The notes under the pieces were generated by a model, which was given only the letters and a program-made list of their open reading frames with translations, made no database searches and was not told the origin of the DNA. 64,000 nt of DNA from Blattamonas nauphoetae. Taxonomy: Eukaryota > Preaxostyla > Oxymonadida. Below are positions 1 to 64,000 of the stretch, piece after piece. Location of the stretch: positions 1-64,000 of the forward strand of contig JARBJD010000309.1 of NCBI GenBank assembly GCA_033064195.1. The letters run 5' to 3'. How positions within the stretch are numbered: the first letter of the stretch is position 1; each line of letters starts with the position of its first letter. The position numbers were made by a program, and so were the translations under genes.

Positions 1-116
1 ATCCATTGGAGATTGAGACAAACCGAGCGAAAGGGATTTTTCTACAAGTGATGAAGTTCCGGATGAGCATTTTACATAGAGGTAATGATCAAGACCACAA
101 CATGGGGATCTCTCAA

Positions 117-200
117 ATGACTTCGTTTTGGAAAAATGACTTGGTCTTAAGTCATGAGAAAAAGTGAAAAGTAAGTCATATGACTTCAAACCAAGTCGTT
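117..200. repeat. End of an unseen inserted element: ATGACTT/AAGTC word cluster
   Basis: The words ATGACTT, GACTTGG and their reverse complements AAGTCAT and CCAAGTC recur at close spacing in both orientations, partly as palindromes (AAGTCATATGACTT near 174-187). The pattern matches the subterminal word clusters of the delimited TIR elements in this window. It abuts the first codons of an NHREM family copy running leftwards, so it is read as the right end of an element whose body lies outside the window. Its exact end and TSD cannot be fixed without the other end. Confidence 0.45.
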
Positions 201-218
201 CCGACTACACTGGTCCAT
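201..218 (-). pseudogene. NHREM family copy 0, first codons only
   Basis: The minus-strand ATG at 218-216 is preceded, reading leftwards, by sequence at 219-270 that closely matches the region upstream of the start of family copy 4 (43203-43265), including CCATGG and a GATCATGCCC-type block. Only a handful of codons follow before the word cluster at 117-200 interrupts them. This is therefore the 5' end of a ninth family member, head to head with copy 1 and cut by an insertion that continues off the window edge. The identification rests on upstream similarity, not on the few residues themselves. Confidence 0.4.
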
Positions 219-376
219 GGTTTTATCATTCGATCATGCCCCTTTGAATGCATGAAACGAACAATCTGGTTTCTTCGCGTATCGGATGAAATATCGGCAT
301 CAAGATCAATAAAGCATCCTGAAGTCGTTCAAAGACGTCTTCAGCTGGACATTTACTTGAAAAGGACAGATTCAAA

Positions 377-390
377 AATGGGACGATCTT
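377..390 (+). promoter_or_regulatory. Conserved pre-start motif of NHREM copy 1
   Basis: AATGGGACGATCTT begins 25 nt before the ATG at 402. It corresponds to AATGGGATGATCCTC, which lies 26-28 nt before the ATG of copies 6, 7 and 8. It is probably a core promoter or initiator, or a translated leader in some copies. Confidence 0.5.
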
Positions 391-1002
391 ACCTCAGATT
401 CATGTCCATCTCGCCCTGCGTGATTCACTCAAGATCCAATCCACCAAATCCACATCTATGTGGTGTTTTCCAACTGTTGATCAGAAAAGCGTGTCTCTTG
501 AAGTCGTACTCTGAACCTGTAATGTCAGAGGAAGACCTTTCAAAAGTGTTCTACGCGCTTCTCGCTTGTGAAAACCAACTATCCTTTTGATAATTCCCTT
601 GAAGACAACGCAGTTCGTGTTATCAAGGTAATAAAACAAAATTATTACGTCTGACACATTTATTCGTTGACGATCTGATCACGTTCTTGTCATCACGACA
701 TTCAACAATCGTTTTTCCAACTCTGAGTACTTAGACATGATCTTCCATCTGTCATCTCACGTTAACAAACGATGTTTTCTGTGGAATGATCTTGTGTCCA
801 AGCTTCTAACAAGCGTTGATCCTCTCCACCTCCCACTGGCAGCTCCACTCAAATATTCACATACAACTCGTTATACTTATCGAAATGTGTCTCCGCGTCA
901 CCATTAATCACCTTTACGGCATGTTACGCAACGAACATACGATCGAGGAGTATGGAAGCAGGGACCTCGTGTTTAACAAAGTTCTTCCTTCGACAGAATA
1001 TC

Positions 1003-1160
1003 GGCATAATCCGACCCCGTGCCCCGTCCAATATTTCAACAGCTGCTCTATAACATTGCACTTCGCAGTGATTCTGGAAGCATACATCTATTTGAGACCG
1101 GGTTTTCGACTTACAGACAAACTAAAAATTACTGTTCGATCAAACTCATTGCATGAAAAC
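1003..1160 (+). repeat. Left TIR of element I1
   Basis: The left terminal inverted repeat of the 11.8-kb element begins GGCATAATCC directly after the TSD. It matches the reverse complement of 12672-12833 with only a few substitutions and small indels up to GCATGAAAAC. Confidence 0.85.
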
Positions 1161-1424
1161 TTCCCTCTTTCAATCAAGGAAAACAAGAATGCATGAATGG
1201 TATTTTTAGAGTAAAATGATCTCATACTGGTCACAAGCTCCACAAACGTGATGACGTAAATCCTCCATCAATCAAGAAATGAAGTGTCTCCTGATCTTTG
1301 TTCATTTCTCTTCATTATTTCAACAGAGAGAAGCGTCTGTTGCGTGATACAAGGTGAGACACTCATTTCACAGTGAATAAGGCGCGATCTTTCTTCGAGA
1401 CAACGATGCCGAAAAGATTAAGAC

Positions 1425-2100
1425 ATGATTGAGGAGATCTTTTGCGATGTCAGACAATCCCAAACTGCGGTCCTTCCGTGTCACTCGCTTGTCCTTGTTG
1501 AGAGTTTTCGATGTTTCCAGTTTGTTTGCTTCCAGCTCCTTCTTTGCATCCTTCTTCTTTTCGAATCTTCACTTTCTTCTCGTTTTCTTGTTAGAGAGAC
1601 CTGTCGTTTGCGTCGTCTGCTGCGATCTCAACTCCAACGAATGTGGGCGAAGTGATTGTCAGAAGAAGAGTAGACAAGGCAGAGGCGAGTCGATGGAAGA
1701 ATGCCACGATGAGATGAAGTGAAGACGGTCTAAACATGAAGGATTGGGTGGATGGTCGAAGCGAGGGGAGTTGCGGATCGGTTGGGAAGGAGGTGGATGG
1801 GAGTGGGAGGGATCGAAATGGTGGAAGCTGGGGAATGTGCTGGTTCGCCAATGAAAGTTGATGAGATGAATTGAAGCAGAGACGAGATGAATGTAAATCT
1901 GAACAGAGGAAGTGACAACGTTGGAAAATAAGAAGGAGAGATGGGAGAATGTGTTGGAGTTGGGGCGAGATTGAGGTGGTCTGAAGATGACGTGAGTTGG
2001 AGGGATCGAGTTGATAAGAGAAGAGATCAGACTCGTCTGGATCAGAAGTGGATGGAGGTTGAAACCATTTTCGAGAGAAAAAGGGAGAGAGGTCGGTCAA
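1425..2100. other. Left interior of I1, no gene recognised
   Basis: Several short ORFs overlap on both strands, all low-complexity (Phe/Ser/Leu-rich on one strand, Arg/Glu-rich on the other). They look like shadows of purine-rich DNA. A proline-rich minus-strand frame (about 2108-2300, SPFPRNPVQIPSPPQTIPIR) probably belongs to the last exon of the gene to the right. Confidence 0.35.
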
Positions 2101-3316
2101 TTCGGCCTTCTAATGGGTATGGTTTGGGGTGGAGAAGGGATTTGGACGGGATTCCTCGGAAAAGGCGATGATGAGAGAACACTCGGGACATCTGGTTCGA
2201 GGGGTTGATTTCCTTCTAGTGTGATCATTTCTTGCTCAGCTTTGAGGATTGGAGGGATCGTCACGGGTGCAGTTCCCGCGATCGCCTAAAATTGCGTTTG
2301 AAGTGCTTTTCGTTCCGACGGGCCTCGGACGTGGAGTTGACTGTGGTGGGGCTGTTTGGCAAGTGTTTTGGCCATTTTGATCCATTTCTCGACCAATCTC
2401 AGAATTGTGTTGAGTCTGTTCAACTGGATGTCATGTTCTGAGAGAGCATCCTCTGCCATGCAGATCTGCTCCTCAGCGATGCGTCCTGATTCTGAGCTTC
2501 CTCCTGCTTCTGTTCAATCTCTCTCATTTTCCTCGCGAGTTCTTCCTGCATCTTCTGATTTCCTTCGAATCTTCTCTGTTGTTTGTCACACTCTCATCGA
2601 GACTTCCACTGCGAATAACTCGAATCAATGCGGTCCGTTCTTGCTTCGGAGAGTGTTTTGTGAGTGATGTACCGAGTGGCTGGGACAGAACTGAACAGTT
2701 TTGGGAAAGAGCATTCGAAAATGATCTGACTGAATTGCTTCGCTTCCGATCAGGTCAATCAGAACGAGAAAGACATCTTCAGATGGGAGGGACACTAGGC
2801 AAGGATTGGAGGTGAACACACAGAATGAACGAGCGAGATTGATGAATGATCAGATGCAGCTCAAGTGCATCGGAGAGCCCTTCTGTGCGCAGGTGTCCAA
2901 ACACCAACTTGTATCGGTGTTGAACAGCTGTCCCTTTCTTCAGCGAGACAGGCAGTTCGTCCAAGAGAGCCCCGATGAGCTGGTTCGTCATTAGTTCAGT
3001 GTCGAAAGAGAAGGCTGTCGATGCAGGCAATCGCAGCTGGAGAAGACACGATGGATTGAGTCATCTGTTCCAGGAAGGGTGAGAATGCCATGATTGATCC
3101 GAGGAGATACGTGAAATGGTGAGATTGATCCGGACCTTCATTCGCAAATCTCTGTCTGAACAACAACGTTCGGAACTTCTATTCACTGATCATTGTAGAT
3201 TTCATGTGGACAACTTTCTTTCTACACATTTCGACCTTCGCCACGATGCGGATGGTCGGGTTCCCAGATGAGGATTTCAGAGTTGAAATGTGACAAAGAA
3301 AGACGATAAAGCAAGC

Positions 3317-3952
3317 TTAGTCTCTACACCCCTTTCCACACAGATCTTGCCCCGTTCGCACCACCTCAATCAGCTTCCCGATGATTCCGGTCGATTCTCG
3401 GTCGCGTCGGTTTGCTTCGCTAATTTCTTCTTTCAGCGTCATCAATTCACGCTCTCCTTGTTTGCTTTCTTTCATCCATCGCACTCTCTCTGCATAGATC
3501 CGAAGCTACTTCTCCAGAAACACCGTTCTTTCCTTCAGCTCCTTCAACTGCACTGCTTGTTCGTCATTCGGATCCAAAGTCTGCGACAATGACCTCAGAC
3601 TCCCCGACGATGCAGACGGCGAGAACTGGCTTGAAGATGAGCCATGCAAATCCGCGTTCACAGGCAGGAGGATCGTGGGCGTCCCAGATCCAGGAAGAGA
3701 ATGACGCCGAGTGAAGACGGGAGAGGTGCTGTGGCTGGACGAATGGGAAGAGGGGCCAGAATGCTGAGCAAAGACCGCAGGACCCGATTCTGGTTCAGCC
3801 GAAGTGTCCTTCGAAGAATGCTCACTATCAAGACGCTTCGGGGTCTGACTGTCGTTCGCATCCGATGCATCCTGCGGGTGCTCTGCTGTTGGTTTGGTCT
3901 CAGCGTCTTCCGCCTTTTGGTTGACGAGATCTTGGATCTCCACATTTTCTGC
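3317..3952 (-). pseudogene. Ser/Pro-rich plus coiled-coil exon with an in-frame TAG
   Basis: It begins after a TTTTCAG acceptor near 3953. The frame reads AENVEIQDLVNQKAEDAETK, a Ser/His/Pro-rich linker, then LKELKERTVFLEK. A TAG codon follows at 3506-3508, and the same frame continues as LRIYAERVRWMKESKQGE... to TAA at 3317-3319. The helical pattern is continuous across the TAG, and Gln would fit there. The stop could be a nonsense mutation in captured cargo or a readthrough codon. Confidence 0.45.
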
Positions 3953-4087
3953 CTGAAAACGATTCACAGGAAAAGCACAAACATTCAACATTTCGAGCGC
4001 ATTCAAGCATTGTCGATTCACATTCGAATGCAATTTTGCAAAAGAGGAAGATAGTTTTGCTGAGACAGCGGATAAATGTCAGAATAA

Positions 4088-4382
4088 TTAGACGATTTTG
4101 GCCTTCTCCAATGTGCGGAGTTGGGTCAACAAACGCATCTGCTCCTTCAACCCCAGCAATTCCGTGTCATCTGGTTTCTCTTCCAGTTTCTTATCCACAC
4201 TCAGCAGCATCTTTCCCAACTTTTCAATTTGAACGGTCATCTCCTCTGATTCTTTTGTTTGTTCCTCAATAACATCACCAAGCGTGTCTTGAACATCGCT
4301 AAGTGTGTCATAATACCAGTCGAGTGAGAGTTCCGATTGTGAGAACGCCGTTTGCGTCGATGTGATTGTCGACAAGATCTGA
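4088..4382 (-). CDS. Acidic coiled-coil exon within I1 cargo gene
   Basis: The exon follows a polypyrimidine tract and CTCAG on the minus strand (about 4383-4387). It encodes an acidic, charged-helix segment (SLDWYYDTLSDVQDTLGD, then IEEQTKESEEMTVQIEK and KKLEEKPDDTELLGLKEQ) that ends at TAA 4088. Heptad-like spacing of Leu/Ile/Val suggests a coiled coil. The neighbouring exon (about 3317-3952) is Ser/Pro-rich, then coiled coil. Function unknown. Confidence 0.45.
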
Positions 4383-5399
4383 GAATAGAAAGACAGACAT
4401 GAAACTCAAAAAGAGAGAAAACTGTTTGAAAAGTGTCCTCAATATCAGATCTTGGCGATTCTTCTTATTGTCCATCACGGTGTCCTCTTCCGCTCGACGA
4501 TCCCAAATCTGCAAATCATGCTTGTTCGTTGGCTCTCGTCCATTCTTCTCTCTTGAACTGCACACTCCCACCCCACTGTGCAATCCGCGCTGCGTTGTGC
4601 ACTCGCATGATCAGCGACAAGCTGTTTTCCAAGTTTCCGACCACAGAAGTGTGTTGAAGGAAGGATGCAGGTTATATGCCAACGTTTCGTTGTCGAACCG
4701 TCCCACCAGCGACGGGAAGACCGAGATGAACGATGGATACAGAATCTAGTCGCGGGGCTCGTGGGGATTTTTGGAGATTCGGGCAACGACCCAAAGAGAA
4801 GAGAATTCAAGAATAGTACCAGAATCTACTGAGTCCGACGACTTCTCAGTGATTTGGCCACACAATGCTTCAATTGCGCGAGTCAGGAGGCTGTGTTGTT
4901 CTTGAAGCACTCCTCTCAGCAACAACGAGAACATGTCGCAAACTGTCACCAGAACTCCCAGAATCGTGAGTGGCTGAGCAGGTTCAGAGGATTCCCTTCC
5001 CATCAGCTGTCTGTTCACATCATTGAAGTCCTTTCTGTCTGAATCTTCCGATCGTGCATCGTGGTGAAGATCGGAGCGTTCATCTCCAGATACTGATGTA
5101 CCTGTTCCAGACACCGAGGAATCATGTTCATGTTGATGAATCGGATGACCCATTCGATCCCCAGCAAACCCAGTAGCTGATACAGTCAGTTGATTTCGTT
5201 AGACGTGAACGCCAGGAATGGGGACTCCAAGTGACCCTATGCCGACATTGTGCTTAATTTGCTTGGAATGAGCTTGAATGACTTGTTTGTTCGTGAAAAC
5301 AGGACAGGGAGTTGGGATCTTGGAAGATGTAGTACCTCGACACAACAAAATGGATCCAAGCGTACGCCTGTGCAATGTAACCACTCGTGTTGCTTTGTT

Positions 5400-7190
5400 C
5401 TTAAATTTCTGCGTCGCCCACTGCGGTGGCGATCACATTGTCTGCTTTCGTTAGATCTGATTATTTTGTTGATTGCAAGTCTCCAAACAGCGACACCATC
5501 CGTTGGCCGAGAGGCACAGGAGGGGCAGTCATGAGTGGTGGCAGCATAGATAGTGGGAGGATGACACAGTTCATCAAATCACGTGAGGGTAGAGTGTTGA
5601 TTGTGATGATTGAGTTTGATGCGTCCATCGCTTGTGAAAGGGTTGATCGGAATAGGTTGAGGTATTGGGAATGGAGTCTTCAGGCCTGTTCAAGGAGGCT
5701 GCGAAGATTCATTGTTCGAAATCTCAGATTGATCACACCCAGATCTCTGTTTTGCTTTGCCTTTGGAATGCATTCCTTCCCATTTCAATCGCATTATCGT
5801 GGTTGAGATGATTGAACAGAGCAGAGAGTGGAGAATAAAATGTGGAGGTGCGCTATTCGATGTTGTTGGAGAGTCGCCTCCAATGCCTACCTTCAAACAG
5901 GAGAGAAGCAGGAATAGTACCTGGAAATAGTGCTGAAAATGATCTAAATGGAGCACACTTGTTCATGTTTGGGCACAGGTTTGTCAGCAGACGCTGTTGA
6001 TTCAACAGATTGGACGATGATACTGATCCTGGCATCTATCTCCGCAAGTTACACAACACGTGAGTCAGGCGAGACAATGAAAAATGTCTTCTCGACAGCC
6101 TGTATTGCTCTTTAATCATCAGAGTGATGAGAATGAGCTTTTTCATTTTTGTGTTGATCGGATCCTTAATTGTAACTGAGATTCAGAAATGATCTTGAGA
6201 TGCTAACTGTGTCTGTTCAGTTCAGATTCAGTTGAAACTATTTTAAAGAACCATTTGGCGTTCTCAAAACTCTCTTAACTGTCTTTGTTTTGATGTTCGA
6301 AGAAAATCACATCCACTTTGAAGTCCCTACTCGTGTTGATCTCTTGAAGGAGGCATTTTTGGACACTATTTCATTTTCCACAATCTCACGAACAAGGTCC
6401 ACTCTGATCTCAGGGAAAATGACCGATTAATGACACGCCGTGCATTGTTGCTTATCTCTTTAGTAGAAACTACGTTCTTTCTTCCTGCTTATCATTCACC
6501 AATTCTATCCAACTTCTCTAGCTCAAGACAAGAAACTCTCTGTGACTCCGTGTGATAACCAGAATGGAATAAAACCCATATAACTTTCAGAATTTGAGGG
6601 AGGATCATTTCTTGTTTTCACTTTTAGCAGTCGATTTGGGTCAGAATTTCAGACATCATTACAAAGTCCGAGGATTCAAATCGAATTTTTTGAGATTATT
6701 GAAAAGTTCGAGAATCCGAATGATAAAACAAGACGAATCCCTCTTGTCAATTGTTTGTCTTATTTCACGAAAACAACGATGAATGATGTCTCACGCGAAT
6801 CTTTGAGAATGGATAATGCCCGTCTCGACTGTGTGATGAGACGAGATTCGACAATAGCTGGAATAACTATTCTCTGATTTCAAACAGTCTCACCCACTTG
6901 TCACCATTGTCAGACTCTTGATACAGATCTGATCGATCACAGCTTTTGATCACAACGTCGAGATCGCTGCTCACTTCACTTCCCTTGGTTCTCAATAGTT
7001 TCGAAATCCATGAGAGCAAGTGAAGCGGAAACAGGAATCAAAGAGTTCTATTTAGCGCTGTTTTGGTCAATTCTCTCTTTTACCCGCCAATTTCACGATC
7101 TCACAAACAATAGAGGCAATTACGGTGGAAATCCTTGTGATGAAATGATCGATTGAATGAGTTCTGACAAAAAATGAGACAGTTATTGAA
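5400..7190. other. Middle of I1, no convincing gene
   Basis: Apart from the short candidate first exon ending near 5920 (MPGSVSS... on the minus strand, start 6035), no ORF here has a protein-like composition. At 7194-7290 the box CCAAAATAGGAGG is followed by the words GATCAGAC, GGTCTG and TGATCA repeated in both orientations. This resembles the subterminal regions of elements I2 and I5. Confidence 0.4.
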
Positions 7191-7386
7191 TCTCCAAAAT
7201 AGGAGGTTGATCAGACCCAAAATTCGTTAGGTCTGTTCAGCTGATCACAACTTTCGCCGTGTGATCAGACTGTTTCTAAGGTCTGCTCAAGACTTTCAGG
7301 TTGAATTCGAATCGAATAGAGCCAAGTTTGGACGTAAGTTTTTATCATGGGGTCGACCATACTTTTTTCTCTTCAAGTCGATCCTC

Positions 7387-8400
7387 ATGGAAATTGATCG
7401 GGAGGCTCCTCAATCTGATTATCTTCCCATTTTTCTCAATTCTGATGCGGCTTGTGAATGGTTTCTATCTCGATACGTCACAAACACTCACATTTGTGGT
7501 AAATGCCGTATTCCAACTCGACTATCACGAAAGAGAGACAGAAATCCTTTTTGGGAATGCTCGAGATGCGGCAGAACACGTTCCGTCCTAACTGGGACAA
7601 CATTTCAACACACAAACCTTGAAATCGGCAAAATTCTCGCAATCTTGTTATTTCTGTGGACAGGTGTGACAGCTCGGCACACCTCGGTTCTTTTGCATGT
7701 TGGAGAAGACACCATTGGGTATTGGCGGAGTTTGATTCGGTGCGTCTGTGTACAAGTCTGGAACGAAAAGCAAGAAATGTTGGGTGGGGAAGGGCGAGTG
7801 GTAGAAATCGACGAGGCAATCTGGAGAAGACGAAAATATCATAGGGGAGAGCAAAGAAACAGATATGGATATTTGGGGAATTGAGAGAAATGAAGGAGGA
7901 AGAAAGGGCAGGAGTTTTGTTACAATAGTCCGGCATCGGAACCAATCAACTTTAATTCCAATTATTCAGCAAAAATTCGACCCGGAACTCTCATTATTAG
8001 CGATGAATGGAAAGCGTACGACTGTTTAAAGGATCTAGGATATACACATCAAACCGTCTGCCATAAGCGCAATTTCGTAGATCCAACCACTGGTGCATGT
8101 ACAAATCACATAGAAAGTATGTGGTCTCAACTGCGAAATTATCTACCTCGTTATGGGGTCAGAAAGCGTTTTTTGATAGATTATTTAGCTCAATGGCTCG
8201 TACGACAACATTCATTGCTAACTTTCGAGGAGGTGGTCGGACTGGTGCTGCACTATAAACCAGACAGGTCGGGAAGCGAAGATGAGTGGAACAGTTCGTC
8301 TGAGGAGATCCCGGAACTGAGGGACATCCAGGCGGACACCAGCGTGGAGGAGGAATCTGATGGGGCCGGCGATGGCGCGTCGGCTTCTGATTATTCATAA
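7387..8400 (+). pseudogene. Merlin (IS1016/ISXO2-like) DDE transposase, two frame slips
   Basis: The ATG at 7387 opens a frame with a zinc-ribbon (CGKC, then CSRC about 24 residues later), followed by GRVVEIDEAIWRRRKYHRG, which holds the first catalytic Asp. Further pieces encode IISDEWKAY (second Asp, about 8000) and CTNHIESMWSQLRNYLP (catalytic Glu, about 8110), then an acidic C-terminus ending TAA 8400. This is the Merlin/IS1016 order and spacing. The frame changes near 7877 (a run of four G) and near 7975 (a run of five A). Each looks like loss of one base in a homopolymer, so the copy is inactive or these are assembly errors. Merlin transposases cut at TIRs and leave 8-9-bp duplications, matching the TSDs seen around I1, I2, I3, I5 and I6. 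Confidence 0.8.
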
Positions 8401-8899
8401 GTCAGAAATTGTATCTCTCTTTTTTTCCTCCTTGTTTATAAGCATTTGCATCTGCCACAACCAACTCGTCACAACCAGCGAAATACCTTTCACTCTTCAA
8501 AAACAGACAACGGGATGCAACATTCTGTTCACTTTTAGTCAACTCGGCATGAATTACTTCAGGATTTGACGTTTGGTCATGTCAGTCCATTCTTCATCCA
8601 CCATTCTCGTCTACCAGCCAAGAAAACAGGACAAATCAAAGTATCATCATTCTCAGGCCTCATACAATTGTATCTTTGCTCCTTGCGACTCTAAAGTTTT
8701 ATTATCATCCTCTATCGCAAGCTGAAATTGTGAACCAGACTTATTCGCAGACACTTGCGAATGATGCGTCAGTGCTTCATCAGCTCATCTCGACAAACTC
8801 AGGAAGCGGCAGCCTCTAGCACAGTGCTCCTCTCACAGGAGGTCTGTCTATTCAGTCAAAAGCACAAGCCTAGCAAATTCATTCCCCAGTCGTAGAATC

Positions 8900-10860
8900 G
8901 AAGAATCTAACTGCTCTGGAATTGGCTCAACTTGACCTCCTCCGTTTTGCAAACGAGCACACAAACAAGATATCGTCGTCTCGGACGTGAGCGGATTTGT
9001 GGGACTTTATGTCAGCAACCGTCCAACGACTGCGAACGGCCGACTTCAGACTGTTTATGCAGACCATCGACAGAATATTCTCGCCGCTCTCGTTTGTGCT
9101 GGCTGGGCGTATGAGAAAGGCCGGACGCGTGCTGATTGCCGGAATCGCAGTCGATCTATCCAGTGTAGAACGGACAGCTGATATCCAGCGCTTTCACTGC
9201 TTTTCAAGATCCCCTTTCTTCATCCCCTTCACAATACCTCAGCCTTGTCCGATAAACGTTCTCACAAGCGCTGACCACATTCAACTCAATCATCCCAATC
9301 AACGCAATTCCCTCATGTGTCCTAACGAACCTTATCATCCTTCAACAATTCGGACCTGTCTCACGCAACACTCACCCTCCTGTTTCTCTCGTTCAATGGA
9401 TACAGCCGCTAATCGGAGATTCTCATTCGACGAAAGAATCGAAACTGACGATAGCGTATGAAGTGGTCACAACAGCACTAGGCAAGACCGAAATCGAAAA
9501 AGTACAACAAGTAACTGTATTGCGCACACTCCAAACCATTCAGAACACTCTCTGCACAGTAATTGGTAGTTGCCTTCCTTGGCATTTCCTTCATGCCGCA
9601 TCATTTGTCTGTAAAGCTCCTGAGTCAGCTAGAAATCAAAAGATTCAAACCGAACACACTTTGACGATGCTAAAACACAGCTGATGAGAAAGGAAACTAC
9701 CAATTTTTTCTCTGCCTCAAGCGATTCTGGGGTTGCGGGATGAACTTCCAGAACCGTCTACCACCATTCAATCAATCATACGTCACAAGAAATACAATCT
9801 TTCGTTGACCATCTTCGTCAATCATCTTCCTCATCCATTTTTGAACTCTTATGCTCATCCTTGTCGCAAATGTTACTCCAGGATTCGTACAATTGGACAA
9901 CCGAAATCACCTCATTTGTATGTCTAGCTTTCTGTCTCGTTTATCAACAGTTCAGAACGAACGTGGGAATAACACCAGATTCTACCGTTCAATACAACAA
10001 CTCTGCTTATCATTTCGCACCGCACAATTCAAGGTCTGTTTCAGCCTCATCTCTCACTGTCATTGCTTCATCTTCTTTGTTCTCAGAAATACATAATGCG
10101 TGGAAGGAGTATCAAGGTTGGGTGTTCAAAAACTTGAAACATGCTGCCAACTGCACCCATCCACCAGGATTCGACGTCTACGGACAACCAATCGTGTTCA
10201 GCATCCATCATTCCCTCATTTTCTTCTTTTCAGTCTATCACTTCAGCCCAAACCACGAGCAGGTTCCCAACGATCCCATTTTCCGTCACATCAAATCAAA
10301 CAGTCTCCATCTCACCTAAAACAATAAGCCCCACAACTGGACAACCAGCAGTCATACACTCTACTTCCTGTTCAACGCAGATCGTTCCAACTTGAAGCCA
10401 ACTTACAGAACGGAGATTATCAACCGCCAAACACCCTTCCAGGTGAAGACACCCACGCATTCTCTCCCAACATGATCGGCGAACAATACTCTTATATCTC
10501 GTCGCGATCCATCTCACAAATCAGGACGTATTCATCAAAGTCGGTGTCACCAACCTGGGAGTTGTCATCTGGTTCCTGTAGAAGTGTCCGAAGCGCTAAT
10601 ACAGCACGCGTACTGCTTCTTTGCCCAACAGTACCAATTTGGTCTGTATCTGCAAATGCATCAGCCCCACCAACAGGCACATCGGATCATCGCTCCCGTG
10701 CACATTGTTCAGGCTGGGATCCTGAGGTGTGTTCTTTTACTAGAAAATATCATTCCTGGCAGCTTCTGAGCCAGCAGTCCTCCATCAAGCTTCACCTCCA
10801 GATGCCAAACATCCCCAAAGTTGCCCACAATGCACGTGAGTCCTCTACCAAGGCAAGACA
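8900..10860 (+). pseudogene. Scattered exon-like pieces of an unidentified gene in I1
   Basis: Several plus-strand stretches have protein-like composition but no continuous frame: ALELAQLDLLRFANEHTN (about 8917), VSLVQWIQPLIGDSHSTKES into VVTTALGKTEIEKVQQVTVL (about 9380-9550), and EITSFVCLAFCLVYQQFRTN (about 9907). They could be exons upstream of the PUF-like piece, or pieces of another captured gene. No domain was recognised. Short introns and decay cannot be told apart here. Confidence 0.3.
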
Positions 10861-10866
10861 TCCCAC

Positions 10867-12627
10867 ATGGACACCATTTTCCCGGTTATCCTCAACAGTG
10901 TTCAGGCTCACATGTCCAGTCTTCTCTATCAGACCAATCCTCCGAGCCCCCATTCTTCAACTCCATCACTAAAACATACGATATCGATGCCTGAATTAAC
11001 GGATTCATCTCCTCGGGCACGACAAATTGATAGCACCCTCGTTCGTTTCATTGAGCAGAATGGAGAATACAATCTAGTCACTGTTTTTACAGAACCGAAT
11101 TCCATCTCTCCATGTCAACAAGATCATGACCATGTGCAGACATTATCAACTCTCAGCCTGACACCGAGAATATTCTCAAGCGACACAGTTGATCCAGACC
11201 GACCACACGCACAAACAACAGGCCATCCCTCGCAAATCGGTCAACCCATCTTTCCAGCCATCCGATCACTTGCGGACACTTCGGAATATCGTTTACAGAT
11301 GCTGGTCATGACTGTTTGATTCATGAGTCTTCACCGATGTCGCTTCAAGCAAAATGGAAGTGACTCTGAAACAACACAAATATTTCCACATCCAACCGAC
11401 GATATGGGCAATGGTGAACGAAACAGGACTCCAACACTCCATCAAATTCAGCCAACAACACTCGCCAATCCTCAACCAACCATTGTTCCTTTGCCAAGCC
11501 TATCGACATCGGAACCGACAGTAACTGCACCAACTGTTGAAAAACGTTTTGTTCCTCGAATCAAGACGGGATCGCATCACCCAAAGCTTGCTACAGCGTC
11601 CCCTTCGACATCCCATCCCCACTCCCAATCTAGTCATTTGCATGATTTATCCACTCCCAAATATGTTTTCCCACCCCAACAAGGATCCACATTCACAACA
11701 CCATATTGCCCGCAAGACACTTCTCACTCTACACTGCAAATCTCCTCTCCACAGCTCACACCCTCTTTCTCGTCAGCTCCAAACACAATATCTTGGCCGC
11801 ATCCAAAAAATACCCTTCAAGTCCCTTTTGTGCACCCTCCGCAACAAATCCCCCAATTTCATCCGCTCGTTATTCCGAAACAAACATCATTTCATGTCAC
11901 TCCGAACTACACCTCTCCAGCGATCTCCATTCTTCACCCTGTGAACGCCCACAACTTTAACGCTCTTCGGACACCAATTGACGTTGATATTCAAGACCCA
12001 TTCCGTTCTTTTTCAGCAGTTGTTGATCAAACCGAAACACTCCTCTCCTCCCAGCAATGGTGCCGATTTTATCAAGAAGTACTCTCAAGCATCGAAGGAC
12101 AGGACAAAGACGGTCGTGGGACGCGGGCAGACATGGTCATTCTCGCAGCGCGTGTGGGAATGTCAGCGGAATCCGTTTCGCTCCTCTCGCTCACTCTCCA
12201 ACTGAGTTTCGCCGAAATTTGGCCGAAATTTGTGTTTTGATGTTCGGATCGCTTTGGACACTTTACCATGCAGATCTTAATCCACCTTTCGAGCAAAGAT
12301 CTTCTCCGCCAATTTGGCAACCTCTTAACAGCATCTACAGCCTTCGAAATCTGTCTCCATCCATTCGGAACGCACTGCATCCAAGCTATGATTGTTCGAG
12401 CCGGAGGAAACACCGATTTGGAGGCACAACTCGGACGTCATCTGTATGGACACGCCTTCCGTGTTTCAAGCGATAAAACAGGAATTCACGTCATTTTGTG
12501 CATTCCTCTTGTTCGTGATCGCTTTTCTATCCTCAGCCTGTTGTTCCCGATACCGCCTTTCTTCATTTTTCGTCACGTCGATATTCTCAACTTTATTCTT
12601 GCTCTGTTTCATTGTATCATCTCATGA
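10867..12627 (+). pseudogene. PUF-like (Pumilio-type) RNA-binding gene fragment in I1
   Basis: One frame stays open from 10867 to 12627 except for TGA at 11317-11319 and 12238-12240. The first two thirds are Pro/Ser/Thr/Gln-rich and low-complexity, as in the N-terminal region of many Pumilio proteins. The end carries two PUF-like repeats: CSDRFGHFTMQILI (about 12241) and FEICLHPFGTHCIQAMI (about 12340). Canonical PUF proteins have eight such repeats binding single RNA bases, so this is at most a truncated module close to the right TIR. The two in-frame TGAs and the missing repeats indicate a non-functional captured fragment, although introns at the TGAs are not excluded. Confidence 0.45.
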
Positions 12628-12671
12628 TTCATATTTGTGATTGTTGGTACTAGAAATTTGTGTAATGGTGT

Positions 12672-12833
12672 GTTTTCATGCAATGAGTTTGATCGAACAG
12701 TAATTTTTTAGTTTGTGTCTGTAAGTCGAAAACCCGGTCTCAAATAGATGTATGCTTCCAGAATCACTGCGAAGTGCAATGTTATAGAGCAGCTGTTGAA
12801 ATATTGGAGGGGGGCACGGGGTCGGATTATGCC
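12672..12833 (-). repeat. Right TIR of element I1
   Basis: Inverted partner of 1003-1160, ending ...GGATTATGCC immediately before the second AGAATATC. Confidence 0.85.
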
Positions 12834-13338
12834 AGAATATCTGTTGTTTCTCGACCAGCACAAACGCTTTCTCAATGAAGACTTGTTAGACACATTCTTG
12901 GATCTTGTGGGTGTGATCGTCCGCATCGGCTCGTTTCATGCTCCCACTTTGGAGTTTCTGCTCTCCCACTGTCTCCAACTGACATTCCCCAGCCATCTCT
13001 CTTTCGTCGAAATTGATGTACGTCGGCTTTCTGCCCTTCAAAACATCAACGTCTTCCCTGAACGTTGGAAAGAGGCTGGCCCAGAAGTGGCCCGATCTGG
13101 GAAGTGCATTTTTCGTACTTTATTGGCCGAAGGCGTCGAAGACGCACTCGAACAAACTCTGAAGATTGATAGAACCGAAATCCGGGGTTTCCAAGTTGTT
13201 TGTGTCAGCCAAGACCTCTCGCATGCGCTGGGAGGGAATGTGAAGTCCAACGGAAACGCTGGTCGAGACAGTGAAACCGATAGTGGTGAAGACAGTGAAA
13301 GCGATGATGAAGACAGCGAAACCAGTGATTGGAGATAA

Positions 13339-15648: not shown

Positions 15649-15659
15649 TTAGATCGGAA

Positions 15660-19181: not shown

Positions 19182-19189
19182 GTCCACAC

Positions 19190-22875: not shown

Positions 22876-23003
22876 CCAATTTGCAGACCTTTGATACATG
22901 AGATCAATCAAGCAGAAACTGAGATCGATCGATCTCAGTTCCGGTTTTTGGGACTGAGATCAATGACTTAATTAGGCGTATCTATATTTGTCTCATTGTT
23001 GTG

Positions 23004-23360: not shown

Positions 23361-23469
23361 CCCATCTCCCTGTTCGCCTCACGTCCCACCCAGCCCGCCC
23401 ATCAGCTCTTTCGGATTTCTTAGAACGATGGAACCAGCAGCTGAGACAGTTGTGAGGTAATTGGGATCG

Positions 23470-24060: not shown

Positions 24061-24139
24061 GCGGTTTGGTTGCAGGAACGAGAATAAAGATTCAGAGGAT
24101 AGCCAACTGGCGTGATGATCCTGAATCAAATCGTGGATG

Positions 24140-46299: not shown

Positions 46300-46340
46300 T
46301 GAATCTCAATAACAATGGGAAGATCCTCATCGCAGAATCG
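46300..46340. promoter_or_regulatory. 41-bp divergent start region of copies 3 and 5
   Basis: Copy 3 starts at 46299 (minus) and copy 5 at 46341 (plus). The pre-start motif AATGGGAAGATCCTC lies at 46314-46328, 27 nt before the copy 5 ATG. Any promoter must overlap coding DNA of one partner or be bidirectional. Confidence 0.45.
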
Positions 46341-48790: not shown

Positions 48791-48934
48791 CTCGACGAAA
48801 GTCCAACATGCCAGGCCGAAAGATATTCGTTGCCAGTGATGGCTCATTTCATTCTTCTCTCAATCTTCATTTTATTTCTTCAAACAATGCGATAATTGTG
48901 CGTGAAGTTTCCTGAGAATGAGTGATTATCGACC

Positions 48935-48949
48935 AATGGGATGATCCTC
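48935..48949 (+). promoter_or_regulatory. Pre-start motif of NHREM copy 6
   Basis: AATGGGATGATCCTC, 26 nt before the ATG at 48961. It contains ATG-GGA-TGA, a two-codon upstream ORF out of frame with the gene. Confidence 0.5.
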
Positions 48950-48960
48950 TCCTCTTTTCA

Positions 48961-50365
48961 ATGGAAAATGAAACAGTTTCTTTCAAAGCTTCTAACGATA
49001 CCTTATCGACTGACTCTCAGAAATCACCTTTGATTATCAAGTTTAAGGAGGAACCTTTCCTGTCCTTCGACGAAAACTCAGAATTGTCGTTCTCTGAGAA
49101 ATCAACCATTTACCGTTCTCTTGTTGCTCTTGTGAAAGCTGATTACCCGTTGAACAATGCCCTTGAAGACAAAGCTGCCAAATTTTTGAAGATCCTCGAA
49201 CCAAAATGGAGGGATGAACAGTTTGCGAACATACAGGGTGAGCCAAAAGTAACCTTCTCTAGGGGCCGATCAAAGCCTTTTTCGACAAAAGTTAAAAAAG
49301 AGAGTTTCAAGACGTGAAATATGAAGAGAGTGATCATTAAAGCTTAACTGAATTCTCGTTCGTTTTTTGTCAGAAATCGGGACATGCGAACGATCTGACT
49401 TCATTCGTACACTGCACTGAAGTTGATTAGAAAGAAATCAGTGAATGAGGTGGTGAGCAAACAGTATAGCGACAACGATCTCTATTTGATGTTTGTTTTC
49501 GAAAAGATGACATAAAAACACAATTGTGGGATGAAGGTTACTTTTGGCTCACCCTGTACTCGTCACTGACCTCGTTCACTCTTCAGACGGATCGTGTGCT
49601 GGCTTTATTTCGAGCATTCTGACTCTGGTGTCATCTCCCCACTCGATGATAGTCATGGCAGCGTTGTCGTTCCTCAACAAAACAATGAAAGTTGTGTCAC
49701 CTGCAATTCGATGTCCTCTCGCGGAATCGGATCTCATTTCCAATGTCTTAGAAACCATTCAACCTCACACACTACCCATTTCACAAAAAGAAACCATTAT
49801 CGCCCATCTCATCCAAATCATCGACGATTGTATCCTGCTTGCGCTTCCATTTTCTCTCGAACAACTTGGCATCACTGATACAGTCGACGAATACAACCAT
49901 CGTGAAATGATCTTTCAGAAGATCGTTCTTCCATCATCTCAATTTTTCATCTTTCTGATCTCAAATCGGTATAGTCTCAGACAGGCCTTGTTGGACTCAT
50001 TCATGGAGCTATTAGCCGTACTCCTTCGAATGTGCCCATTTCATCGTCCAACGTTGGAATATGTTCTCGCATCTCCGATTGCGATGGCATTCTCAAGTTG
50101 TCTTTCGATCGTCGAAAATGATGAACATATTGTTGTTTCTCTCCTCCACATCCACTGTTTGGTGGGAGCTTGCTTGACAGAAGGTGTTGAATTTGTCAAA
50201 TGTGGGAAACGGATGATGCAAGCTCTGTTTTCGGAAGGCTTCGAAGACACACTCGAACAGATGATCAAATTCGACAAAGATACAAATTGTGGTCATGGTG
50301 TTGAAAAATCTTGTCGCTCCATCTCGAAATTGCTGGGATCGAATATGGAATTCACTGGCTGGTGA
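48961..50365 (+). pseudogene. NHREM family copy 6, split by a mariner miniature element
   Basis: The first piece, 48961-49233, encodes MENETVSFKASNDTLSTDSQ to LEPKWRDEQFANI. The second, 49559-50365, encodes LVTDLVHSSDGSCAGFISSI to LLGSNMEFTGW, TGA. Skipping 49234-49556 and one TA leaves 1080 nt and joins FANI-LVTDLVHSS in frame, as in paralogues (AKLVTDLVPSS). NHREM is present (YNHREMIFQKIVLPSSQF). With the element in place translation runs into the insert and stops at 49317. Apart from the insertion the gene is intact at 359 aa, so the event is recent. Confidence 0.8.
49234..49556. mobile_element. 323-bp mariner-derived miniature element in copy 6
   Basis: The perfect inverted ends CAGGGTGAGCCAAAAG... 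span about 23 bp and are flanked by TA at 49232-49233 and 49557-49558. Interior strings match the mariner at 62440-63756 on both sides of its transposase: an AACTGAATTCTCGTTCG-type string near the 3' coding end and CATGCGAACGATC around the transposase start. It is an internally deleted relative of that family with slightly different termini (GAGCC versus GATTC). Confidence 0.85.
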
Positions 50366-51069: not shown

Positions 51070-51084
51070 AATGGGATGATCCTC
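51070..51084 (+). promoter_or_regulatory. Pre-start motif of NHREM copy 7
   Basis: AATGGGATGATCCTC, 28 nt before the ATG at 51098. Here the spacing is two bases longer than in copies 6 and 8, so the motif is not in frame with the gene. This argues that it acts as DNA or leader RNA rather than as coding sequence. Confidence 0.55.
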
Positions 51085-51097
51085 CTACGTTTGTTCA

Positions 51098-52171
51098 ATG
51101 CAAGCAGAACTTTCTCGTTCGAAAACATCTTCTGATGCCTCTTTGAATCATTCACCGAATTCATCTCCGATTGTTAAGCCTGAAGAAGAGCCTTTCCTGA
51201 ATATCGTTCACAAATCAGAATTATCGTTTGAGGAGAAATCAGCAATTTACTGTTCGCTTGTTTCCCTCGTTAAAGAGGAATATCCATTCGACAAAACTCT
51301 CCAAGACAGAGCTGCCCAGTTTTTGAAAATCCTCGAGCCGAAATTGGGCGAATTCCATTTTCCAGCAAAACTCGTCACAGACCTCGTTCCCTCTTCAGCC
51401 GGATCACCTTCTGGCTTTGTTGAGAGTATTTTCATTCTGCTGTCGTCTCACCACTCGACTGTAGTCGTAGCAGCGTTGTCATTCCTCCACCAAACAGCAG
51501 TAGAATCATCACGCCACCTTCTATGTCGTCTCGTGGAATCAGATCTCGTCACCAACGTCTTCACGTCTATTCAACCACACACCCTGATAATTCCAGGAAA
51601 CGAAACGATGTTCAACCGTCAAGTCGACATCATCAACTTTCTCGCAAATCTAGCACTTCCGAGATCTCTCGAAGAACTTGGCATTACTGCCACAGTCGAC
51701 ACACTCAACCATCGTGAAATGATCTTTCGGAAGGTCGTCCTTCCATCGTCTGAATTTGTGACATTTCTGATCTCAAATCGATGTTTCCTCAATGGAGATG
51801 TGTTGAGCTCCTTCATGTCTCTATTAGCAACACTCCTTCGAATCGGCCCATTTCATCGTCCAACATTGGAAATTGTTCTCACATCTCCGATTGTGATGGC
51901 ATTTTCATGTTGTCTCTCGTGCGTCGAAGATGATTCATTCAAATGGCGTCGTTTCACCATCTTCTACTTTGCGCTTCAAGAATGGAAAAGAGCAGGCCCA
52001 GAAGTGTCCCAATCTGGAATACGGATGATGCAAGCTCTGTTTTCGGAAGGCTTCGAAGACACTCTCGAACTGATGGTAATCCGCAATGAAAGCGGAAATT
52101 ATGGCCGCGTTCTTGTCAATGACTACCTGAATATCTCACAACAGCTGGGATTGAATGCGAAAAGACTGTGA
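51098..52171 (+). CDS. NHREM family copy 7, intact (357 aa)
   Basis: An uninterrupted family member from ATG 51098 (MQAELSRSKTSSDASLNH) to TGA 52171. There is no signal peptide or membrane span. Landmarks in order: EPFLNIVHKSELSFEEKSAI (about 31-50), LVSLVKEEYPF (about 52-62), LVTDLVPSSAGSPSGFVESI (about 88-107), LNHREMIFRKVVLPSSEFVT (about 204-223), FLISNRCFLNGDVLSSFMSL, FHRPTLEIVLTSPIVMAF, and MMQALFSEGFEDTLELM near the C-terminus. The alternation of Leu-rich amphipathic helices suggests an alpha-solenoid (HEAT/ARM-like) fold. Family membership is certain within the window; function is unknown. Confidence 0.85.
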   Translation: MQAELSRSKTSSDASLNHSPNSSPIVKPEEEPFLNIVHKSELSFEEKSAIYCSLVSLVKEEYPFDKTLQDRAAQFLKILEPKLGEFHFPAKLVTDLVPSSAGSPSGFVESIFILLSSHHSTVVVAALSFLHQTAVESSRHLLCRLVESDLVTNVFTSIQPHTLIIPGNETMFNRQVDIINFLANLALPRSLEELGITATVDTLNHREMIFRKVVLPSSEFVTFLISNRCFLNGDVLSSFMSLLATLLRIGPFHRPTLEIVLTSPIVMAFSCCLSCVEDDSFKWRRFTIFYFALQEWKRAGPEVSQSGIRMMQALFSEGFEDTLELMVIRNESGNYGRVLVNDYLNISQQLGLNAKRL

Positions 52172-59929: not shown

Positions 59930-60663
59930 TTTTTATCACAGAACAAGTTCAAAAAGAGATAAATGATGGAAAACGAAGGAAAAAGCTCATTCTGTGTGAA
60001 AGAACCAACACAAGGTCATCTATTGGAGAAAAAGTCACAAACTGTTCGAGGAGACATATTCAACAGACTTGATAAGATTAGTCTTGGAAATTTCAGAAAG
60101 TATCCGGACGATGCGGTTTGTGATAAATTGTGAAGGAAAAACGAGCATGAGAGGAACTGTAGCAGTGGGAGGAAGATCGAAAAGAGTGAATCGAATTTGA
60201 CGGTTTACAACGAGAAATTGCTGAAACAAAAGGAGAAATAGAGCGAAAACAGTCCAAAACGTTCAATCATGCGATTCTTGAGAGATCCTTATGGCTCCTG
60301 AGATTTGATTTGCGACGAGACAAAAAAGTGCTGAGTTTCAGCACATGAGAACAAAAAACAATACATACAGTCTGATCTACATCCAATACGCTGGTTGAGA
60401 CGGGTCGGATCATCTAGATTCATAATCAAATAAAGTTGGATGGTGAGAAGGAGCCTGAACTTTGAATCGGAAAGATATCACGCGAGAATGAAGAAAAGTT
60501 GAATATCAAACCTTTATGATGTCGATAGTGGCTGGACCTGTGAACTGGGAGGATTTCTGGGAGATCTTCAACTTCAAGACGAAAGGGAGACGCATGCAAG
60601 TTTTGATTTAGAATCGCCCATTTTGACACTTCACTCATCGAACTTTCTTGCAACTCGATCCTT
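59930..60663 (-). CDS. Unidentified small multi-exon gene, minus strand
   Basis: Two exon-like pieces: about 60625-60515, with an open frame reading VLKLKISQKSSQFTGPATID followed by a GT donor after CATAAAG; and about 60218-60040 after TTTCAG (QFLVVNRQIRFTLFDLPPTA, TNRIVRILSEISKTNLIKSV). Composition is protein-like, with alternating hydrophobic residues. Start and full exon structure were not resolved. It lies convergent to the ASPM-like gene. Confidence 0.35.
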
Positions 60664-60754
60664 AACCGAAACAATAAGAATCATCTCCTCCCACGGACGT
60701 GTTTGAAGGAGGATAGTTTAAAAAACAAACGATCGAATCCAATGTGGAAGAGAC

Positions 60755-60769
60755 AATGGGATGATCCTC
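60755..60769 (+). promoter_or_regulatory. Pre-start motif of NHREM copy 8
   Basis: AATGGGATGATCCTC, 26 nt before the ATG at 60781. Confidence 0.5.
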
Positions 60770-60780
60770 TTCGCTTCTCA

Positions 60781-61854
60781 ATGGAAGAGATAACACTTGC
60801 AACAAACGCTTCCCTTGATGCCAATCTGAATCATTCACGTGATTATCATTCAACTGTGGAACCATTGCAAGAACCATTCCTATATTTCGATGAGTACACA
60901 GAATTGTCATTTGAGGACAAATCAACCATCTACTGTTCACTTCTTAATCTTGTGAAAGCTGACTACCCTTTTGACGATGCCCTTCAGGACAAAGCTATCC
61001 GATTCTTGAAGATCCTCGGACCGCAACGGGGTAGACAAGATCAGGCTAATCAACTGGTCACTGACCTCGTTCCCTCTTCAGCAGGATCGCATGCTGGCTT
61101 TGTTGAGAGCATTCTGACTCTGTTATCTTCTCCACACTCGAATGTGGTTGCAGCAGCGTTGTCATTCCTGTATCGTATCACAGCTTCCTCATCAACTGAA
61201 ATTCGATGTCGTCTCGTGGAGTCTGATCTGATCAGCAAAGTGTTAGCAACTTTTCGACCTCACACAATGTCAATCGCTAGAAATGAAGCGATCATCGACG
61301 ACCTAAACATTATCGTCAGAGATTGCCTCTTCCTCGCGGATCCATACTATCTCAGAGAACTTAGCATCACTGCAGCATTCAGCCAATTCACCCATCGTGA
61401 AATGATCTTTCAGAAGGTCGTGCTCCCATTGTCTCAATATGTGGCATTTCTGATCTCAAATCGACTCTTCCTCAATGAAGACTTGCTCGACTCATTCATG
61501 TCTCTATTAACCGTACTCTTTCAAATCGGTCCGTTTCATCGTCCAACATTGGATTTTGTTGTCGCATCTCCGATTGTGATGGCATTCTCAAGTTGTCTCT
61601 CGTTCGTCGAAGATGAGAGTACTCTCTGGTTCATTCTCAGGGACATTGCACAATCACTCGGAGAATGTACTGAATACGGCCCAGAAGTGGTCCAATCTGC
61701 AAAACGGATGATGCAAGCTCTGTTTTCGGAAGGCTTCGAAGACACACTCGAACAGATGCTGATGAACGACAAGGACGAATATTCTGGTTTCTGTCTTGTT
61801 CGTGATTGTCACGATTTCACACAATTGCTGGGATCGAATGTGGAAAAGCTTTAA
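60781..61854 (+). CDS. NHREM family copy 8, intact (357 aa)
   Basis: The conserved start MEEITLATNASLDANLNH at 60781 is preferred over the upstream in-frame Met at 60703, because family similarity and the pre-start motif place the leader before 60781. It ends TAA 61854. Its length of 357 aa is identical to copy 7. Landmarks: EPFLYFDEYTELSFEDKSTI, LVTDLVPSSAGSHAGFVESI, THREMIFQKVVLPLSQY (Thr replaces Asn of NHREM), FHRPTLDFVVASPIVMAFSS, MMQALFSEGFEDTLEQML. Predicted all-helical and soluble. With copy 7 it is one of only two copies in the window without any visible lesion. Confidence 0.85.
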   Translation: MEEITLATNASLDANLNHSRDYHSTVEPLQEPFLYFDEYTELSFEDKSTIYCSLLNLVKADYPFDDALQDKAIRFLKILGPQRGRQDQANQLVTDLVPSSAGSHAGFVESILTLLSSPHSNVVAAALSFLYRITASSSTEIRCRLVESDLISKVLATFRPHTMSIARNEAIIDDLNIIVRDCLFLADPYYLRELSITAAFSQFTHREMIFQKVVLPLSQYVAFLISNRLFLNEDLLDSFMSLLTVLFQIGPFHRPTLDFVVASPIVMAFSSCLSFVEDESTLWFILRDIAQSLGECTEYGPEVVQSAKRMMQALFSEGFEDTLEQMLMNDKDEYSGFCLVRDCHDFTQLLGSNVEKL

Positions 61855-61869
61855 CGAGGCATCTCAAAT

Positions 61870-62200
61870 GACGCTTCGACACTACCTCTCTCGAATGACT
61901 CCAGAATGATTTCTGCGGACACTCCTCGGATGTTGGGAATGCACTGATTGCTGGTGCCGACGAACAGATTCTGGGATCGCCTCCAATCGTCCAGAAATGG
62001 TCTGCTCTTTTGGGTTGGTCGTTCTCATCGCGACTGTCTTTGACTGTCACATCGTCAACCGTCCTCTCTCCAAACAATTCCTTGTGTCCCTGAACGATGC
62101 ATTGTGACCAGATTATCTTTCCCAATCTCGACTTTGAACCATCTTTAAATCACTTCTCGTTCATCTCGTCCAACTGGGATGTGCCCCACATTTCAGCTCT
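61870..62200 (+). repeat. Conserved 3' block, copy 8
   Basis: Same block, in the sense orientation of copy 8. Confidence 0.7.
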
Positions 62201-62439
62201 TCCACAGCCACCCACGATCTGTTTGAGGAGTGTCTCATTGTTTTTGAGATTCCTGGTTTGTGCCATCCACTCATTGTTCTGTTTTCCTTATTCACGCTCC
62301 ATCTGTCAGTCCAATCATTTTCTCCCTTTCCTGATCTCTCTAATCTACATTTCAGTGTCTCTGGATGTACTTGATGCCAATATCGAACGGACAAGTGTTT
62401 GATTCATGTTCTGAAGTGGAACAAACTATCGGGGTGATA

Positions 62440-63756
62440 CAGGGTGATTCAGAAGTTATTGCTTCCTGAGGGTCCGATCGACATCATTTTTGGAAAATGT
62501 GAAAAATGAGAGTTTCAAGAGGTGAAATTGGTATTAAATTACAATTAAACTTCAACGGAATTGCCTTCTCGTTCAAGACACTTTCTACAGCGGCTGACGA
62601 CACTTCGACAAACATCTTGGATTTTCTCTTGTGAGAGAGACGCCACAGCCTCTCGAATCATCTGTTCTAGTTCTTGAAGTGTTCTGGGATCTTGGATGTA
62701 AACTTGTTCTGATATCTCGTTCCATAGCCAGAAGTCACAGGGTGTCAAGTCTGGACTTCTGGCTGGCCAAGGGTTTGCTCCGTTTTTTCCAATCCATCGT
62801 CCAGGCAGCTTTTGATTCAGAAACTCGACTGTTTCGTTGGCGGTATGTGCTGGGGCACCGTCCTGCATCAGCCAGGAGGTGCCTTCTGGGTCGAGTTCTC
62901 TGCGGACAGGAAAGAATTCACGCTGCAACATTTGCCGGTATTTATCCTGGGTCATTGTGCCGTCGTAAATAATAGGTCCAACCAAGCCAAGACTTGAGAT
63001 CGCGCACCAGATGTTTAAACCACGTCGAGAGTTTGGTATCTCGACGTGGTAGTGGGGATTGGTTCTAGAATAGTAATAGCGGTTGTGTCGGTTTACTGTC
63101 TGATCGAGGGTAAACCTCGATTCGTCGGAGTACCATACTTGATCGACGAAGAGCGGATCGTTTTCATTCTTGGTAAGAAACCATTGGCAGAACTGTCTCC
63201 GTTGACCATAATCTTGGTCGAATAAAAAATGGGATGATTGGAGCCGATAAGGAGTAAAGCCAAGTGACTGTATGATTCGTTGCGTCGATCCGTACGACAT
63301 GCGAAGATTTGGCATTCTTTGCCTTATTGACTGGGTTGGACTGGTTTGGACGTCACGCTCAACACGCTCACGAATCGCTGGAGTATTTACTGTCCTTGGT
63401 CGACCCGATCTTGCGCGGTCGGCTGTCCCTCCTGTGTCTTGGAATCGTCGGACAAGCGCACGGATCGTCCGACGATCTGGACGATGAGGGAGCTCCCATT
63501 TCTGTAGAACTAACGTCACATCGTGGTGACGATACCACAAATCGATTGCATGTACCCGTTCGTCTTTAGACAGACGTCGGGGCATGCGAACGATCGTGTG
63601 TCGTTCGCAGACTGTACAGTGTCTGAGGGGAAAGAAAACATTTACAAAGATGGTGGAGAAACCGTTGGGTGATGATGATTCACGGTTGTTGTTGCTTGAT
63701 GGATTGACGGAGAAAAAATACAATTGTGGGGAGACAATTAATTCTGAATCACCCTG
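62440..63756. mobile_element. Complete mariner element (DD41D type)
   Basis: A 1317-bp element with inverted ends CAGGGTGATTCAGAA (15 bp perfect, about 26 bp imperfect), flanked by TA at 62438-62439 and 63757-63758. It encodes one uninterrupted transposase on the minus strand. It lies in intergenic DNA downstream of copy 8. Mariners of this catalytic type are common in arthropods, so transfer from an insect host gut environment is conceivable (inference). Confidence 0.9.
62545..63585 (-). CDS. Mariner transposase, 346 aa, DD41D
   Basis: Start Met at 63585 (MPRRLSKDERVHAIDLWYRH); an in-frame extension upstream overlaps the TIR and is not used. Two N-terminal helix-turn-helix units (about 1-110, with the linker SGRPRTV) bind the TIRs. 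Catalytic residues: Asp in VWYSDESRFT, Asp in LMQDGAPAHT, and the final Asp in SPDLTPCDFWLW. Forty-one residues separate the second and third Asp, against 34 in classical mariner, so this is the DD41D (rosa/VISITOR-like) group. Frame and motifs are complete and end at TAA 62545. It appears potentially active in cis and could also move the miniature element at 49234. Confidence 0.9.
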   Translation of the reverse strand: MPRRLSKDERVHAIDLWYRHHDVTLVLQKWELPHRPDRRTIRALVRRFQDTGGTADRARSGRPRTVNTPAIRERVERDVQTSPTQSIRQRMPNLRMSYGSTQRIIQSLGFTPYRLQSSHFLFDQDYGQRRQFCQWFLTKNENDPLFVDQVWYSDESRFTLDQTVNRHNRYYYSRTNPHYHVEIPNSRRGLNIWCAISSLGLVGPIIYDGTMTQDKYRQMLQREFFPVRRELDPEGTSWLMQDGAPAHTANETVEFLNQKLPGRWIGKNGANPWPARSPDLTPCDFWLWNEISEQVYIQDPRTLQELEQMIREAVASLSQEKIQDVCRSVVSRCRKCLEREGNSVEV

Positions 63757-63758
63757 TA

Positions 63759-64000
63759 CTAAAAACTTGCTCTCCACCTATAGCCGTATAGAAAGGAGAA
63801 CGGCGGAATATGAGTCAAGTTGCATTATGTACATATGAAGGACCAGGGATAGCAGTCTAAGGATTGTTAATAGATGCACAATTCATGCTGATCTCTCCGC
63901 CCGGGAAAAGTCAGTGCACTTCCTGAACTTCACTCAGATTTTACTCATCCATCTCACATTTTTTCGTATTTTACTCACTTTTTTGGACCGTCTGAGATTA
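63759..64000. other. Right edge, no gene recognised
   Basis: AT-rich DNA to the right of the mariner. No ORF of note and no clear element end. Confidence 0.4.

Follow-up and report, generated by a model that had tools for sequence, protein, structure and literature searches.

Gene-interrupting inserts in Blattamonas nauphoetae: a suggestive pattern attributed to a recent burst of several transposon families

The closest parallel to the gene interruptions described here is Tvmar1, a Tc1/mariner family of Trichomonas vaginalis. According to excerpts of its description (PMC4021607), Tvmar1 has amplified recently and occupies polymorphic sites, and one of its insertions into a reading frame accompanies abolished expression. 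The interruptions studied here lie in a 64,000-nt stretch of DNA, positions 1 to 64,000 of contig JARBJD010000309.1 (GenBank assembly GCA_033064195.1) from Blattamonas nauphoetae, which we call the window. This organism is an oxymonad, a flagellate of the gut, and in its window eight inserts lie within the coding sequence of six genes. A sequence-only reading had posed two explanations: a burst of transposition followed by little decay, or inserts that are tolerated because they are removed from the DNA or the RNA. Drawing on a single genome assembly and its gene models, we find it very probable that the inserts belong to several unrelated families of ordinary transposable elements, that most of these families have multiplied very recently, and that the genes are simply broken.

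Like Tvmar1, the window shows DNA transposons that have recently amplified in an anaerobic protist, one with large gene families, and that have inserted into reading frames. It differs from Tvmar1, as those excerpts present it, in that several unrelated families occur together, that there are two short non-coding elements, here called F and B, and that the case is known from one assembly. F and B resemble mariner-type miniature inverted-repeat transposable elements (MITEs) in their TA target, inverted ends, short non-coding body and many near-identical copies; no transposase of the same family was identified for either, and the ends of a mariner in the window match those of F only in part. The internal eliminated sequences (IESs) of ciliates, in the portion of PMC3464196 consulted, likewise derive from transposons and lie in reading frames, which are restored when the insert is omitted. 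Introners, as excerpts of PMC9860276 describe them, are likewise non-autonomous elements with terminal inverted repeats and target-site duplications (TSDs) that multiply and land in genes.

Two gene families are interrupted in the window. One, which we name NHREM after its motif NHREMIF, has eight members here, A to H, and no accepted Pfam match (one weak match, E 0.0065, fell below its cut-off); the other is represented by a receptor-like gene. The genes and the comparison copies are the following.

441..13338, + strand: NHREM-A, a degenerate copy split by insert I-A; on either side of the insert, the joined frame resembles the family
14317..15650, - strand: NHREM-B, a 5′-truncated copy split by element B
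16397..28604, - strand: receptor-like gene, split by R1 and R2; contains part of a kinase domain and an in-frame TAG at 18938-18940
35017..43200, - strand: NHREM-C, a copy split by C1 and C2, with a 1-nt deletion and its 3′ part missing
44316..46305, - strand: NHREM-D, a copy split by fold-back element D, intact otherwise
46338..47402, + strand: NHREM-E, a comparison copy without insert, with one in-frame stop
48922..50365, + strand: NHREM-F, a copy split by element F, intact otherwise
51080..52171, + strand: NHREM-G, an intact comparison copy
60607..61854, + strand: NHREM-H, an intact comparison copy

The sequence-only reading had counted eight coding inserts with two genes hit twice, and eight inserts in six genes could be located, the receptor and NHREM-C being the double cases; that reading gave no coordinates, and its eight inserts are equated with ours by count and description. 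Across the inserts, target duplications are 0, 2, 3, 8 or 9 bp long.

1003..12833, 11,831 bp: insert I-A in NHREM-A; inverted ends about 160 bp long that are 97% alike; exact 8-bp TSD AGAATATC
15141..15525, 385 bp: element B in NHREM-B, a miniature element; TA TSD
19190..21167, 1,978 bp: insert R1 in the receptor; ends TTGGC..GCCAA; 8-bp TSD GTCCACAC
22884..24577, 1,694 bp: insert R2 in the receptor; 8-bp TSD CCAATTTG; carries a stretch of NHREM 3′ flank
35119..39777, 4,659 bp: insert C2 in NHREM-C; no TSD
40258..43071, 2,814 bp: insert C1 in NHREM-C; inverted ends of about 500 bp; 9-bp TSD GCAAACAGC
45007..45895, 889 bp: fold-back element D in NHREM-D; CAG..CTG ends; 3-bp TSD ATT
49234..49556, 323 bp: element F in NHREM-F, a miniature element; TA TSD

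Relatives elsewhere in the genome were found for seven of the eight inserts. Copies of I-A were not searched for, and the case for that insert is made by its exact TSD and the 97% identity of its inverted ends. Each search scored at most about 40 candidates, taken from the top, and all copy counts are lower bounds. For F, 40 of 91 candidates were scored: 36 are full length at 99-100% identity, one stands at 98% and three shorter ones at 97-100%; the 30 of these 40 places that were fetched hold identical copies (30/30). All 40 scored R1 matches, of 216 candidates, are about 100% identical to the query, the last 418 bp of the insert. For B (40 scored of 123), 11 copies are full length at 100%, one is partial at 100% and the remainder stand at 90-96%, and for C2, queried with its first part (40 scored of 177), 11 stand at 99-100%, 14 at 95-98% and 15 at 82-83%.

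The copies also carry the marks of insertion. TA flanks the fetched copies on both sides in 30/30 cases for F and 28/30 for B. Exact 8-bp TSDs accompany 7 of 10 R1 copies, with one further duplication mismatching and two copies having an end that was not located. Relatives of D, read by eye, show an exact 3-bp repeat beside CAG...CTG in 7 of 8 cases, the eighth sequence being incomplete; we had at first taken D to lack a TSD, having seen no repeat of 5 bp or more, and dropped that view when its relatives showed 3 bp. All four fetched pairs of C1 ends have a 9-bp TSD, two of the pairs being the same duplicated site. C1 resembles Mutator-like elements in this 9-bp TSD and its long inverted ends, although we do not file it as a member. 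No TSD was seen at C2, either in the window copy or in the three of six fetched copies whose right end was located. Its outer ends are unlike each other and a repeated end lies inside, a compound end common to at least 25 copies (95-100% over the first part); 35119-35460 was for a time treated as separate from C2, until genome copies were found to hold both as one unit.

Empty and nested sites bear on what happens when an element arrives. At one locus (L019) a copy of F lies inside another F, and omitting the inner copy and one TA restores the outer element letter for letter; there is no gene at this locus, so perfect rejoining needs neither selection nor removal. An uninterrupted site with a single TA (L014) matches at about 99% a B-type site that is filled in two other copies of the same duplicated region (L044 and L049). 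For the R1 site, 15 of 18 matches cross the joined site at 82-93% identity, and the three that were read contain a single GTCCACAC and no gap; the other three comprise the window's own two halves and one weak match (67%). For the R2 site, 13 of 40 matches span at least about 390 of 400 bases across it at 77-90%, and the two that were read are gapless. Elsewhere the flanks of L012/L013, of L053/L054 and of L062/L063/L068 are near-identical, with the element present in all members; judged from these flanks, the regions appear to have been duplicated together with their inserts.

At all eight junctions in the window, the host frame and paralogue-like residues resume once the insert and one TSD copy are omitted, or, for C2, the insert alone. 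The earlier claim that this operation restores the frame thus stands locally in every case, except that C2 has no TSD copy to skip. Ordinary insertion would produce the same picture. Each insertion except that of C2 would have duplicated a short target, of 2, 3, 8 or 9 bp, and because insertion duplicates the target, omitting the insert and one target copy gives back the old sequence by arithmetic. The time since insertion would be so short that the junctions are nearly unmutated, the frames being clean because the insertions are young. For the same reason we dropped frame phase as a sign of selection or as a clock: all 12 sites flanked on each side by an open run of 300 nt or longer are in phase (three each for F, young B, other B and R1), which TSD insertion predicts, and many of the other B copies, with equal scores, seem to form separate young subfamilies.

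The elements would have landed alike in genes and elsewhere. After four duplicates and two copies without detected ends had been dropped from 60 fetched, 54 distinct sites of F and B (29 and 25) were available, and the longest open frame through each rejoined site was compared with that at nearby TA sites. Median open frames were 234 nt at F sites versus 297 nt nearby (p 0.24) and 591 versus 402 nt for B (p 0.56), with no significant preference for open frames when pooled (p 0.78). The eight of ten R1 copies that could be measured gave medians of 858 versus 843, again with no preference. The gene preference that is a trait of some introner families is thus not seen at the 54 sites.

As they stand, the interrupted genes are broken, because every insert brings an in-frame stop, reached within 8-213 nt of entering it. 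Four of the six genes (the receptor, NHREM-A, NHREM-B and NHREM-C) have lesions beyond the inserts. Once rejoined, the receptor has about 2,840 codons in frame and one internal stop, the TAG at 18938-18940, where two protein relatives and three DNA paralogues (92-94% alike) encode Trp. In NHREM-C one nucleotide is missing about 18 nt past the C2 junction, and the C-terminal third of this copy was not found, every good match in the window belonging to another NHREM copy. The first approximately 47 residues of NHREM-B were not found, and a stop lies just upstream of its first family residue. Three in-frame stops and a change of frame mar the joined NHREM-A; undetected introns may account for these. 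Four of six genes therefore look defective even without their inserts, and removal would not yield working genes; this is the strongest argument against removal, NHREM-D and NHREM-F being the exceptions. The sequence-only reading had seen no extra damage at the junctions, a claim that fails for four of the six genes when each is viewed whole. Its recent burst is borne out by the near-identical copies, the nested F and the empty sites; its little subsequent decay is not, since decay away from the junctions is common, in these same four genes.

Several observations weigh against so simple an account. C1 and D, each queried with one arm, have few close copies, most of their relatives standing at 74-95%, and R2 has one place at 100% over 1,181 of its 1,694 bases, with other matches partial and of lower identity. 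NHREM-D and NHREM-F (2/6) have no lesion except the insert. The dN/dS ratio (nonsynonymous to synonymous substitution rate) of split versus intact NHREM copies is 0.49-0.72, like that of intact versus intact copies (0.54); it gives no sign of relaxed selection and is too coarse for dating. From the identities, not every insert appears to belong to a large burst, C1, D and R2 standing apart; five of the eight families look not to be equally young, and the claim of a burst would be carried by F, R1, B and C2.

Removal from the DNA as in ciliates would mean that the inserts are kept in one form of the genome and cut precisely from the working DNA. The locally exact joins at all eight junctions and the TA borders of two inserts speak for it, and insert sites are not depleted in open frames; IESs of Paramecium, in the consulted portion of PMC3464196, are equally frequent inside and outside genes, and a lack of open-frame bias therefore does not by itself exclude removal. 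The IESs described there are unique-copy and mostly shorter than 150 bp, unlike the multi-copy elements of 323-11,831 bp here. Nor are the borders here the uniform TA of IESs: two of the eight inserts have TA and the others 0, 3, 8 or 9 bp, so that, with five border lengths and unlike ends, several cutting systems would be needed. Four of the six host genes would still be broken after the cut, no excised form was seen, and the inserts are present in the sequenced DNA. We know of no oxymonad with two nuclear forms, and consider removal at this level extremely unlikely. Assembly error, or inserts confined to one haplotype or to some of the cells, is very improbable: identical repeats are prone to misassembly and heterozygosity is not visible in one assembly, but exact target duplications at site after site (30/30 for F) are not a product of misassembly, and polymorphism between cells would fit a burst of transposition.

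Splicing of the inserts from transcripts, as with introners, is likewise very unlikely. A related oxymonad has, in the part of its description consulted, about two spliceosomal introns per gene, and introners can derive from transposons with TSDs and terminal inverted repeats, as excerpts of PMC9860276 state; NHREM-D and NHREM-F would, if spliced, encode full-length proteins. We examined splicing at all equivalent registers of the insert borders and rejected it there, no GT-AG, GC-AG or AT-AC pair occurring at any of the eight inserts, a result that covers the borders and not sites further inside. The sequence-only reading was therefore correct that GT..AG does not fit. The inserts also differ from introners, as those excerpts present them, in the absence of an open-frame bias and of rejoined gene models. 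With predicted scores of 394 (F), 385 (D) and 369 bits (B), rejoined NHREM proteins are absent from the best 120 of 209 gene-model hits, whose floor is 330 bits. Instead, model P0005 (BLNAU_20882, 49559-52171) joins NHREM-G to the portion of NHREM-F that follows the insert, probably as a prediction artefact, and the receptor model P0121 begins only downstream of both inserts and of the internal stop. The published models were built with RNA-seq hints, according to the portion of the source consulted, and are weak evidence on removal. A literature search for introners in oxymonads gave only work on Daphnia. RNA-level removal may apply as a small remainder to NHREM-D and NHREM-F; that these two at least yield insert-free transcripts through non-canonical, TSD-guided removal is a proposition to which we give hardly any credence, but if true, genes would harbour young transposons of different classes and tolerate them without GT-AG splicing. 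The suggestion that inserts are removed at the DNA or RNA level therefore finds no support in the borders, in the listed gene models or in the four genes that removal would not rescue.

On the reading of ordinary transposition the genes are simply broken, and removal probably does not occur. The genes hit here would be members of large, redundant families that are decaying anyway. In a first look, the genome gave 3,099 NHREM candidates; of the 114 scored, 14 are listed with a stop within the match, some of which may be terminal only (one of the two in NHREM-E is the terminal stop). Sequence similar to the receptor gene occurs at 15 or more other places. With the NHREM family so large and the receptor so often repeated, redundancy is the likely reason why the hits have been tolerated and persist.

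Some further features of the elements deserve mention. At 11.8 kb, I-A is unusually long given its 8-bp TSD. It contains an IS1595-type transposase domain with TGA codons breaking its frame, and it also shows a weak match to PUF repeats and two partly similar stretches, 5405-5674 and 9225-9494, in inverted orientation. About 810 bp of R2 are 82% like the DNA that flanks NHREM genes on the 3′ side, which gives the impression of host DNA acquired by a transposon, and partial relatives of R2 elsewhere have additional DNA in the middle. Two frames inside C1 gave no Pfam match. Outside the genes, a mariner-type element lies close behind NHREM-H, and its end sequence starts like element F (CAGGGTGA), the ends being 65-77% like those of F over parts.

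62440..63756, - strand: mariner-type element flanked by TA at each end; its transposase frame is long and open

Downstream of NHREM-G and outside the NHREM frames, 52699-53115 has 39-bp inverted ends (92%) that are 339 bp apart, possibly another miniature element. Rfam at gathering thresholds gave no match in the window.

The main text of the B. nauphoetae genome paper contains no word starting with "transposable". The suggestive pattern of rejoinable frames in this oxymonad is now well supported as a recent burst of several transposon families. More generally, a perfectly rejoinable frame is the default result of a young insertion with a TSD and should not be taken as evidence for either excision or splicing. 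This genome, with its identical copies, its nested copy and its empty site at 99%, would be well suited to timing transposition in an anaerobic protist.

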